Assembly: GCA_016217725.1 (NCBI GenBank)
Contig: JACRHB010000179.1
Span: 1 to 37,181 of the forward strand
From: Nitrospirota bacterium
GTDB taxonomy: Bacteria > Nitrospirota > Thermodesulfovibrionia > UBA6902
Length of the DNA stretch: 37,181 bases
Reading direction: 5' to 3'
A program made the position numbers and the translations under genes. Shown piece by piece: positions 30,412-35,325 of the stretch (position 1 is its first letter; each line of letters begins with the position of its first letter). A model generated the notes under the pieces. The model saw only the letters and a list, made by a program, of their open reading frames with translations. It ran no database searches and had not been told where the DNA came from.

Positions 30412-30451
30412 TGTTACATTAATTTACAGTTAACTGTAACCTCTTGTAACA
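30412..30451 (+). promoter_or_regulatory. Concentric palindrome upstream of the sigma-54 unit 1
   Basis: A perfect 16-bp palindrome, TTACAGTTAACTGTAA (30424-30439), is centred inside outer arms TGTTACA (30412) and TGTAACA (30445-30451). Both share the same dyad centre at 30431/30432. It is about 195 bp upstream of the -12 box, a normal distance for an enhancer of a sigma-54 activator. Confidence 0.5.
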
Positions 30452-30475: not shown

Positions 30476-30493
30476 TGTCACACCAGTGTGACA
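30476..30493 (+). promoter_or_regulatory. Candidate enhancer site for a sigma-54 activator, unit 1
   Basis: TGTCACA-CCAG-TGTGACA is a perfect 7-bp dyad with a 4-base spacer. Its second arm starts 139 bases before the GC of the -12 box. A near copy stands at almost the same distance (138) before the second sigma-54 promoter at 33406. Confidence 0.6.
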
Positions 30494-30612: not shown

Positions 30613-30628
30613 TGGCATCTATTTTGCT
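30613..30628 (+). promoter_or_regulatory. Sigma-54 (-24/-12) promoter, unit 1
   Basis: TGGCAT-N5-TTGCT, with exactly ten bases between GG and GC, fits the RpoN consensus TGGCAC-N5-TTGCW with one change. Transcription would start near 30639, 18 bases before the start codon of the Cys-rich protein. RpoN with the PrsK/PrsR two-component pair is known to control PEP-CTERM genes in other bacteria. Confidence 0.78.
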
Positions 30629-30656: not shown

Positions 30657-30887
30657 ATGCTTAACCCAACAATAACTGTTAATAAAAAACATTGCCCGTT
30701 TCTTTACAACCCTTTTGATGATTGTTATTGCGCAAAAATGAACAGTCAGGATATTGAGAGGGCCATCTATTTATGCACCAACAATTTCAAAATGTGCGAT
30801 ATATACAAAAGTAAAAACGGCAACGGTAACGGCAGTGATAAGAACAACCATAAGTATTTGAGACAACCCAAGGCTCCAAAAAAATAA
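30657..30887 (+). CDS. Small Cys-rich cytoplasmic protein of the PEP-CTERM unit
   Basis: The 76-residue product has Cys13, Cys23, Cys25, Cys40 and Cys47 in the pattern HCPFLYNPFDDCYCAKMNSQ, then YLCTNNFKMCDIY, which suggests a metal or Fe-S site, or a redox-active domain. The tail is Lys/Asn/Gly-rich and looks disordered. It has no signal peptide. I do not know its function, though I recall similar short proteins beside PEP-CTERM genes. The ATG at 30657 is fixed by AGAGGAGG five bases before it. An upstream in-frame TTG at 30624 is part of the -12 box and cannot be the start. It is the first gene after the sigma-54 promoter. Confidence 0.75.
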   Translation: MLNPTITVNKKHCPFLYNPFDDCYCAKMNSQDIERAIYLCTNNFKMCDIYKSKNGNGNGSDKNNHKYLRQPKAPKK

Positions 30888-30930: not shown

Positions 30931-31653
30931 ATGAAAAACATCTTTAAAGATTCTCTAAAAACTGAGACAGCAGGACTTACAAAGATACTTGCAGTTGTCA
31001 TTGCTTTTGTTTTATTTGCGGGCCTTCAATCGGTTTATGCTTTGACTACAATGAAATTATCTGACGGTGTTGACACAATAATAATTGTTGACGGCGACGG
31101 CAGTGACAAAAATCCTAATGACGGAGTGATCAGTTTTTTGGGTTCCTTAGGCTCTTTCAACATCAATGCGAGCACAGGATTGACTTTCCCGAGTATCGGA
31201 GCTAAGACACTTCCTCAAATGGTACTGTCTTCCGTCGGTGTAAGCTCCGGAAGCGGAGGCACTCTGACCATAATGTTTACCGAGACCGGCTTTGGTCCCT
31301 TAGCGGCTCCCGGGTTTACAACGTCGGGCGGCGGCACAAATAAGGGCAATATCAGTCTGGAAGCTTATATCGACAATGACAATCAGGAATTCGGCAAGGG
31401 AACTTTGCTCGCCGGCCTCGGACCATTCGATTCTCCCGGCGCCTTCAAGGGAGAAACGACTACCGTGGTTTCCCCATCCGATAATTTTTCTCTGACGACC
31501 ATCGCAACTATAACTCATGGAAGCGGAGAGAAAGTCAGCAGCTTCGGTATGAACGTGAGCGTTATTCCTGAACCTATCAGCTCTATTCTCTTCATCACCG
31601 GCGGAGCGATATTAGGCGGAAGATTTTTTTATAAGAGGATAAATCGGATCTAA
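30931..31653 (+). CDS. PEP-CTERM sorting-signal protein
   Basis: The 240-residue protein has an N-terminal signal peptide (ILAVVIAFVLFAGLQSVYA) and a C-terminal sorting signal: VIPEP, a hydrophobic span (SSILFITGGAILGG) and a basic end (YKRINRI). Such proteins are exported by Sec and then cleaved by exosortase at the cell surface, usually in cells that make exopolysaccharide. The middle is Gly/Ser/Thr-rich with beta-strand character and no known catalytic motif. It lies 43 bases after the Cys-rich gene and is followed by a terminator, so the two form one sigma-54 unit. Confidence 0.9.
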   Translation: MKNIFKDSLKTETAGLTKILAVVIAFVLFAGLQSVYALTTMKLSDGVDTIIIVDGDGSDKNPNDGVISFLGSLGSFNINASTGLTFPSIGAKTLPQMVLSSVGVSSGSGGTLTIMFTETGFGPLAAPGFTTSGGGTNKGNISLEAYIDNDNQEFGKGTLLAGLGPFDSPGAFKGETTTVVSPSDNFSLTTIATITHGSGEKVSSFGMNVSVIPEPISSILFITGGAILGGRFFYKRINRI

Positions 31654-33269: not shown

Positions 33270-33287
33270 TGGCACAATACTGTGACA
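33270..33287 (+). promoter_or_regulatory. Candidate enhancer site for a sigma-54 activator, unit 2
   Basis: TGGCACA-ATAC-TGTGACA differs from the unit 1 dyad by one base in the arms. Its second arm starts 138 bases before the GC of the -12 box, compared with 139 in unit 1. AACTGTAACCT, also found at 30432, lies just before it. Confidence 0.58.
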
Positions 33288-33405
33288 CGGCGAACTGTGC
33301 AACGGCACATCTTTTGTCCCTTTATTTTAAGGTATAAATCCGCCCTATTTTTATAACTGCTTGATTCTTAAGAAGATAAAATTCCCCGGTTATGTTTAAC
33401 CTCTT

Positions 33406-33421
33406 TGGCATATTCTTTGCT
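33406..33421 (+). promoter_or_regulatory. Sigma-54 (-24/-12) promoter, unit 2
   Basis: TGGCAT-N5-TTGCT with ten bases between GG and GC, the same bases as in the promoter at 30613. Transcription would start near 33432, leaving a leader of about 250 bases before the lipoprotein gene. Confidence 0.75.
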
Positions 33422-33683: not shown

Positions 33684-34754
33684 ATGAAAAAGGGGTTTAT
33701 CAATAACAAGAGAGCAAAATATATCGTAATGATGCTTATGGGCTTATGGGCTTTGACGTTATTTGCATGCGGCGGAGGCGGAGGAGGCAGTAGCAGCAGC
33801 AGTGAACCGCAGCCTTCCCAGGAACAGCCGCCTCAACAAGAAAAAGTAACCGTCTCCGGCGTAGCAGCGACAGGCGCTCCGGTTACAGGCAAAGTCTATC
33901 TGAAAGACAGCATCGGCAACGACGTAGACCGCACGGTCGATATAACCCCCGACGGAACCTACACGATTGACGTAACGGGCCTCACTGCGCCGTTTTACCT
34001 TTGCGCGGAACCGACAAGCGGCAAAAAACTTTATTCAATCGCCATGGGCCCCGGAACCGCCAATATTAATCCTCTGACCGATCTGGCGGTTGCAGCCGCA
34101 AAGAAGGTAAAAGATCCGGCAGACGTGTACAACGATCCCGGCAGTCATCCTATAACACAAGATGAAATAAATAAAGTCGTCGCCGATATCCGGACCCTTC
34201 TGGACAATCTGCTCGATAAATACGGCGCCAACGTTAATTTCCTTTTAGATGAATTCCATGCCGATCATACGGGACTCGATAAAGTCTTTGACGATGTAGA
34301 TGTGAATATAAATACGCTTACCGGAAAAGTGACATTTGTGGATGAAGACACAGGCAATACATTAGGAGAAACAAACACAGAATTGGATGAAACGACCGAC
34401 CCTGTAGAGCTTGTGGTTTCAGGAGAGGGAGTTAATAGTTCCGACGTATCACTCAAATTGATTAATGTAAGGTCATCAAAAATAGGGCAGGTTATATATT
34501 ACGAACCAATGGGAAGAGTGGATTTTAGAAGTACTTCAATTACTGAAGTATCAATATCAGGAAATGTTGTAACAATTAAAGGTACAGGAACGGTTAATGA
34601 CATTGAAGAAGGTTATTCGTTTACAGCAGTAATTAATGACAGTAATCCAGATGCAATGAGTGTAGTTATAAGTAAAGATGGCGGGCCTTCTTACACTACT
34701 GCTTCTCAACCTATAACTAACACAACCGGTGGATATACGGTAGAAATTAAATAA
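33684..34754 (+). CDS. Predicted surface lipoprotein with a beta-sandwich N-terminal domain
   Basis: The 356-residue protein has a signal peptide ending in the lipobox LFAC, then a Gly6/Ser5 linker and a Pro/Gln-rich spacer. VSGVAATGAPVTGKVYLKDS begins a domain like those of carboxypeptidase-regulatory-like modules, and NPLTDLAVAAA recalls lipoproteins of metal-reducing bacteria. The last ~100 residues (VTIKGTGTVNDIEEGYSFTA and on) form a second beta-rich domain, encoded by clearly more AT-rich DNA than the first part. I infer an outer-membrane or surface role. AAGGAGG precedes the ATG. It is the first gene after the sigma-54 promoter of unit 2, and a PEP-CTERM gene follows after 40 bases. 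Confidence 0.82.
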   Translation: MKKGFINNKRAKYIVMMLMGLWALTLFACGGGGGGSSSSSEPQPSQEQPPQQEKVTVSGVAATGAPVTGKVYLKDSIGNDVDRTVDITPDGTYTIDVTGLTAPFYLCAEPTSGKKLYSIAMGPGTANINPLTDLAVAAAKKVKDPADVYNDPGSHPITQDEINKVVADIRTLLDNLLDKYGANVNFLLDEFHADHTGLDKVFDDVDVNINTLTGKVTFVDEDTGNTLGETNTELDETTDPVELVVSGEGVNSSDVSLKLINVRSSKIGQVIYYEPMGRVDFRSTSITEVSISGNVVTIKGTGTVNDIEEGYSFTAVINDSNPDAMSVVISKDGGPSYTTASQPITNTTGGYTVEIK

Positions 34755-34794: not shown

Positions 34795-35325
34795 ATGAAA
34801 ACAAATAAATATTTAACTCTAATAATAGCGTTTTTGGTTTTGATGCTGTCTGCTACAATAGCATCAGCAACTCCAAGCGCAAGTATTTTATATAATGAGA
34901 CAAGCCCGGGAGAAGGATTGTGGCGTTACGATTATACATTCAATAACACATCTACTAACAATGAATACCTTTATTATGTGCGCTTGGATTTTGGCGGCAA
35001 TTTTGAAATTGCAAATACAACGATTCCAAACGGATGGACAGGCACTTGGGCACTAACAGGCCCTGCTAATTTTATAGAGTCTCATACAAACAATCTTGTT
35101 AATGATATTAGTCCAAACAGTAGTAAGGGCGCATTCAGCTTTACAATTAATTCCAAGATAGGAAGTGTTCCATATACAGCTTATTTCGATGATCATTTAG
35201 GAACAAGGCTCAAAGGCATCGGAATGACGACCGTTGTCCCCGAGCCGTTAAGTTATATCCTTTTTGGCGTCGGCGGGGTAGTGCTGGGGGCAAGACGTTA
35301 TTTGAAAAGGAAAAGAAGCTCTTAG
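34795..35325 (+). CDS. PEP-CTERM sorting-signal protein
   Basis: The 176-residue protein has a signal peptide (LTLIIAFLVLMLSATIASA) and a typical C-terminal signal: VVPEPLSYILFGVGGVVLGA followed by RRYLKRKRSS. The mature part is Asn/Thr-rich with aromatic residues, a likely beta fold, and no catalytic motif. It is expected to be processed by an exosortase encoded elsewhere. Its body is AT-rich like the end of the lipoprotein gene before it, whereas the sorting signal returns to the genome's usual composition. Both are probably transcribed from the sigma-54 promoter at 33406. Confidence 0.9.
   Translation: MKTNKYLTLIIAFLVLMLSATIASATPSASILYNETSPGEGLWRYDYTFNNTSTNNEYLYYVRLDFGGNFEIANTTIPNGWTGTWALTGPANFIESHTNNLVNDISPNSSKGAFSFTINSKIGSVPYTAYFDDHLGTRLKGIGMTTVVPEPLSYILFGVGGVVLGARRYLKRKRSS

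Follow-up and report, generated by a model that had tools for sequence, protein, structure and literature searches.

The window, that is, the whole stretch of 37,181 nucleotides analysed here (contig JACRHB010000179.1 of the Nitrospirota assembly GCA_016217725.1), carries on its forward strand, at 30657–30887, a small gene that is the first of its unit. Translation of this ORF, whose ATG is preceded by the ribosome-binding site gagaggagg, confirmed the initial annotation in giving a soluble protein of 76 residues (MLNPTITVNKKHCPFLYNPFDDCYCAKMNSQDIERAIYLCTNNFKMCDIYKSKNGNGNGSDKNNHKYLRQPKAPKK) with Cys13, Cys23, Cys25, Cys40 and Cys47, the segment NPFDDCYC and a Gly-Asn-rich tail. The claim that it has no signal peptide was also upheld, since a hydrophobic N-terminus is absent. 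Upstream of the gene lies a sigma-54 -24/-12 promoter on the forward strand, TGGCATCTATTTTGCT (30613–30628), found at the same position in orthologues, and 137 bp 5' of its -24 element a perfect palindrome with 8-bp arms, TGTCACACCAGTGTGACA (30476–30493), which is likewise conserved in orthologues and is the predicted site (UAS) for the cognate sigma-54 activator. Downstream, 43 nt after the stop codon, begins a forward-strand gene (30931–31653) for an exported protein of the PEP-CTERM type, with 240 residues, a signal peptide and the C-terminal segment VIPEPISSILFITGGAILGGRFFYKRINRI. The small gene was thus correctly described as the first after a sigma-54 promoter and as lying just ahead of a PEP-CTERM gene; it should be noted that this neighbour is a PEP-CTERM protein by eye, its TIGR02595 score of 11.5 bits being below the cut-off of 16. 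A further perfect palindrome, TTACAGTTAACTGTAA, is present at 30426–30441, about 190 bp 5' of the sigma-54 promoter.

The ORF at 30657–30887 cannot be ascribed to chance, because an orthologue in the same genus (L033, 66% identity) keeps the promoter, the gene and the downstream PEP-CTERM gene, because the dN/dS of about 0.05–0.1 indicates purifying selection (NG86; only pairs with estimable dS), and because the family turns up in 45 of 101 related genomes, in as many as six copies. A PEP-CTERM gene occupies the equivalent position downstream of the five-Cys gene in genomes G004 and G007, and the window's own genome (G000) contains a second five-Cys copy, on contig C84.

No profile in Pfam or NCBIfam (E ≤ 10) or in PADLOC (E ≤ 1) matched the protein, and no relative of the family was found among PDB sequences or phage records; the PDB profile matches that did appear were antibody chains with E ≥ 0.08 and were rejected as chance. 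When 396 genomes were drawn from the whole phylum, the family was found in 49, every one of them from the window's own class. The named records that contain it are MAGs of Thermodesulfovibrionia or Nitrospirae, some of them under the label Deferribacteres or Nitrospira; the outliers are an isolated Geobacter record and one deltaproteobacterial MAG. Judged by these searches, in which the genomes compared were mostly MAGs, the five-Cys family is undescribed and almost confined to Thermodesulfovibrionia (Nitrospirota). Among its 97 unique domains, which are distinct sequences and not independent events, the equivalents of Cys13, Cys23, Cys40 and Cys47 are present in 96, 96, 97 and 96, respectively. 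Pro14, Pro19, Ser30 and Tyr50 are near-fixed as well, and Ile33 is also among the highly conserved residues. Cys25 is found in 88 of the 97 domains and is replaced by Phe, Ile, Val or Ser in the others; this fifth cysteine of most members exceeds the needs of one tetrahedral site.

Four near-invariant cysteines are what a zinc- or Fe-S-binding Cys4 domain would be expected to have, and it is their conservation that points to metal binding. The structure prediction proposed earlier as a check on the metal site yielded a model, which was too weak to place such a site: AlphaFold2 gave the domain alone a helix-containing core at modest confidence (pLDDT 68) and the full-length protein a low-confidence structure (pLDDT 54.5). 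Since the domain model is of this quality, and a fold search of the PDB returned no credible match to it, the metal site is a putative one. The cytoplasmic metal-binding or redox protein of the initial annotation is consistent with its four near-invariant cysteines and with the Cys-rich setting described below, the metal itself being suggested by cysteine conservation only.

The constant partner of the family is a histidine kinase together with a REC-PAS-AAA+-HTH sigma-54 activator (EBP). Across 47 genomes, family and EBP were both present in 30 and both absent in 15, with one genome in each of the remaining classes (Fisher p = 3e-10, relatedness not corrected). The EBP is encoded within four genes upstream, on the same strand, in 62 of the 97 unique members, including some from other taxonomic families of the class. 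The usual order in the window's family is kinase (about 667 residues), EBP (about 567 residues), sigma-54 promoter and five-Cys gene, sometimes followed by a PEP-CTERM gene. Other taxonomic families of the class have kinase, EBP and five-Cys gene with different small genes, and a paralogous set runs on into STAS-like and RpoD-like genes. The window's genome has its EBP orthologue (78% identity) on a separate contig, C151, and in G004 and G007, too, the EBP lies on a different contig; because the EBP of the window's genome is unlinked to the five-Cys gene, the pairing of regulator and UAS there rests on homology. In 26 of the 97 copies, some of them at contig ends, neither an EBP nor a PEP-CTERM gene adjoins.

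The EBP has a peculiarity of its own, in that its PAS domain contains Cys165 in 58 of 60 sequences and Cys183, Cys187 and Cys208 in all 60. Among nine EBPs examined in the window's genome, this Cys4 PAS pattern occurs in only the two relevant clades. Further Cys clusters, less constant, are found in the PAS domains of the kinase, and on account of these clusters in both proteins a metal or redox signal seems plausible.

Nearly all orthologous promoters of the window's family match the UAS consensus TGTCACA-N4-TGTGACA with zero to two mismatches, and the distance from UAS to -24 element is most often 133–140 bp, lesser groups occurring near 103, 112 and 124 bp. In all, a UAS and a -24/-12 element at conserved spacing were found in 45 distinct promoters across the class, 28 of them at 133–140 bp; more distant family members have a variant palindrome with a TGGCA(C/T)-N5-TTG(A/T) element. 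The clusters at about 103, 112, 124 and 136 bp might suggest helical phasing, the signal being nominal only (p about 0.04 at 11 bp, distinct distances). A -24/-12 promoter with a UAS at conserved distance places the five-Cys gene, as far as sequence can tell, in a sigma-54 EBP regulon, the UAS being the site that the EBP is predicted to bind.

In addition, 47 genomes were searched with the pattern CACA-N4-TGTGNCA-N(104-134)-TGGCAY-N5-TTGC, using the reversed pattern as a control. There were 20 matches, against none in the control; 17 lie 5' of five-Cys genes and three before lipoprotein/PEP-CTERM-type or exported-protein operons. One of these three is in the window itself (33273–33420), 2.8 kb downstream, and consists of a second UAS with one mismatch, TGGCACAATACTGTGACA (33270–33287), and, 136 bp after it, a second forward-strand sigma-54 promoter, TGGCATATTCTTTGC (33406–33420). 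The first gene behind it encodes a lipoprotein of 356 residues (33684–34754, forward strand) and the second a PEP-CTERM protein of 176 residues (34795–35325, forward strand), which passes the TIGR02595 cut-off of 16 with 17.6 bits and scores 20.0 bits against the PF07589 cut-off of 20.7, and was over the PF07589 cut-off in the genome search. A counterpart operon of lipoprotein and PEP-CTERM genes in G022 (L233) is the second match, and the third precedes an exported protein of G020 that is cut by a contig end (L232). Only four palindromes with at most one mismatch exist in the window's genome, namely those of the two five-Cys genes, that of the lipoprotein/PEP-CTERM operon and one on contig C132. 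On this sequence evidence the five-Cys protein is the most consistent predicted target of a sigma-54 switch newly recognised in Nitrospirota.

Since the same switch precedes both, the five-Cys gene and the PEP-CTERM surface-protein genes form one regulated programme, and the PEP-CTERM link rests on common control as much as on adjacency. Adjacency is in fact uncommon. A PEP-CTERM gene is immediately downstream of, or fused to, 15 of the 97 unique members (PEP-CTERM genes being 25 of the 1116 genes in the same neighbourhood stretches), in automatic counts that used simple longest-ORF gene calling and a regular expression for PEP-CTERM. Read literally, the neighbourhood check suggested with the initial annotation therefore goes against it, 15 of 97 members being beside or fused to a PEP-CTERM gene and 62 of 97 behind an EBP. 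The co-occurrence with exosortase, proposed as a second check, proved to be a weak association in the 47 genomes (22 both/9/6/10 neither, p = 0.03, relatedness not corrected), and was also seen in 101 genomes (32/13/17/39, p = 6e-5, relatedness again not corrected); it did not hold in the window's own genome. Neither PF09721 nor TIGR04178 found an exosortase over cut-off in G000, G001, G008, G022, G043 or G045, several of which nonetheless contain PEP-CTERM-type genes. Assembly loss may account for the absence in G000, which is 92.9% complete; a match over cut-off with the two models is, however, also missing from G008, at 99% completeness, and from G022, a single contig at 95%. The PEP-CTERM link is thus real but secondary, given the few adjacent or fused members and the undetected exosortase of the window's genome: as regards membership in the PEP-CTERM/exosortase system, adjacency speaks against it and shared transcriptional control for it.

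These features can be combined in a mechanism. The PAS-rich histidine kinase would signal to the REC-PAS(Cys4)-AAA+-HTH activator, which would bind the palindrome TGTCACA-N4-TGTGACA and open the -24/-12 promoter. The five-Cys gene would be the main and ancestral target of this switch, which in the window's family would also have been placed before PEP-CTERM and lipoprotein genes. The five-Cys protein would most likely fold round one zinc or Fe-S site formed by Cys13, Cys23, Cys40 and Cys47, and would act as a cytoplasmic feedback or adaptor element, either tuning the Cys-containing kinase or activator or reporting that the programme has been switched on; the PEP-CTERM proteins would be products under the same control. 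The family, its cysteine conservation, its co-occurrence with the EBP, the promoter, the UAS, the regulon and the fusion described below are all read directly from sequence comparison, and we regard the regulatory anatomy of the switch as highly probable. The biochemical role of the protein as a feedback or adaptor element is put forward tentatively and is open to considerable doubt. Taken as a whole, the reading as a cytoplasmic Cys4 component, with a feedback or adaptor role, of a two-component sigma-54 switch that is particular to Thermodesulfovibrionia has in our estimation a little under an even chance of being right. The earlier suggestion that the protein may regulate the PEP-CTERM programme, or sense the state that turns it on, is consistent with the Cys-rich sigma-54 system, with the enhancer that the gene has in common with PEP-CTERM operons and with the fusion.

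In G038, G043 and G045 the Cys domain forms the N-terminus of a PEP-CTERM protein, ahead of the signal peptide (L076:1325-2521, L085:1513-2463 and L086:6875-7972), and Cys25 is replaced by Phe. Between two genomes, dN/dS of the fusion is about 0.03 in the Cys domain as compared with 0.23 in the remainder. An internal translation start was considered and rejected, as no in-frame ATG with a Shine-Dalgarno sequence precedes the signal peptide and L076 has no ATG there at all. After cleavage, a cytoplasmic domain would remain on the signal peptide, an unusual arrangement. In G022 (L119) a PEP-CTERM protein of the same kind has a gene of its own, which overlaps the five-Cys gene, and such an overlap also occurs in L079. 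A possible explanation of these loci is that the Cys domain assists export, binding the precursor or the membrane side of PEP-CTERM proteins as a chaperone or targeting factor, with the standalone copies acting in trans. The three fusions placed directly before the signal peptide, the two overlapping gene pairs and the promoter control common to five-Cys and PEP-CTERM genes would all agree with such a function. However, all three fusions come from one taxonomic family, so that they probably go back to one event, about 82 of the 97 members have no adjoining PEP-CTERM gene, distant members reside in operons with kinase, EBP, STAS and sigma-factor genes, and an exosortase is undetected in several carriers, including the window's genome. 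Outside the single fusion lineage the claim of assistance in export is unsupported, and we consider the export-helper reading as a whole unlikely.

Equally improbable, in our view, is a stand-alone metal or redox buffer (zinc storage or an Fe-S carrier) made under stress, with the PEP-CTERM genes merely co-induced. Such a function would fit the high Cys density, the Gly-Asn tail, the several paralogues per genome and the metal or redox signal suggested by the Cys clusters of kinase and EBP, but the conserved Pro14, Pro19, Ser30, Ile33 and Tyr50 and the helix-containing core point to a specific binding surface, and neither the strict pairing with one EBP nor the fusion to a PEP-CTERM protein would be expected of a buffer. 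That the gene is a cis-acting leader whose translation is coupled to that of the downstream PEP-CTERM gene, as its shortness and the 43-nt or overlapping spacing in some genomes might suggest, is very hard to believe in view of the strong purifying selection on the protein, its conservation where no PEP-CTERM gene follows and the Cys pattern conserved across the class.

The preferred reading, a Cys4 component of a sigma-54 switch, recalls the PrsK/PrsR/PrsT regulation of PEP-CTERM genes in Proteobacteria, the only group for which Haft 2006 reported sigma-54/PrsKR control, regulators and motifs outside Proteobacteria being left to be found (PMC1569441); in Aquincola, pepA is under RpoN1 (PMC9850573). 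Both systems have a histidine kinase, an NtrC-like EBP, a -24/-12 promoter for sigma-54 that is preceded by a motif, and PEP-CTERM targets. In contrast to PrsR, the EBP described here carries an extra Cys4 PAS domain; its UAS is unlike the TTTACA-containing motif that Haft 2006 (PMC1569441) reported from Proteobacteria only, and the gene it chiefly targets encodes a small Cys protein. An assignment of the EBP as PrsR was rejected, the EBP of L034 scoring 368.9 bits against the TIGR02915 cut-off of 502.6; a true PrsR exists separately in 22 of the 47 related genomes and is not found in the window's genome. No earlier description of PEP-CTERM control in Nitrospirota was found in the open literature searched. 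The present data provide a concrete Nitrospirota candidate for such control, with an activator clade, a likely operator, a promoter and a short regulon, as well as a compact family with four near-invariant cysteines, tied to one activator, that is directly testable. The retention of PEP-CTERM-type genes in genomes without a detectable exosortase leads one to ask how their products are processed. As a bolder and rather improbable extension, this could be a second, non-Prs sigma-54 pathway for PEP-CTERM proteins, operating also without a recognisable exosortase, in which kinase, activator and small effector would each use a Cys cluster to relay or sense the metal or redox state; in one lineage the effector would have become the N-terminal part of the exported protein, so that a Cys4 remnant would stay behind on the cytoplasmic side of the membrane at each export event.

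Some further observations concern the surroundings of the switch. A conserved operon in L074, L082, L122, L125 and similar loci consists of kinase, Cys4-PAS EBP, small Cys proteins, a STAS-like protein, a "LAEAIILQSIEDLW" protein and an RpoD-like sigma factor. A second small Cys-rich domain, also undescribed, with the motif CPxL...C...PYVPS...YC...CPxY, was noticed in L087:4670-5239, L178:1278-1832 and L074:6448-6750. It resembles the five-Cys family in its size, its CP start, its final YC...C pair and its presence in the same kinase-EBP operons, but differs in spacing and motif, and in two of the loci, L087 and L178, it is joined to a receiver domain; homology between the two is unsupported (1.2% probability in a profile comparison). 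Finally, the site on contig C132 of the window's genome (G000:C132:13342-13359) is a UAS with one mismatch which, together with a CGGCACTATTATTGCT element (GG-N10-GC), lies 5' of a glycosyltransferase gene; through this gene the switch may also act on exopolysaccharide.
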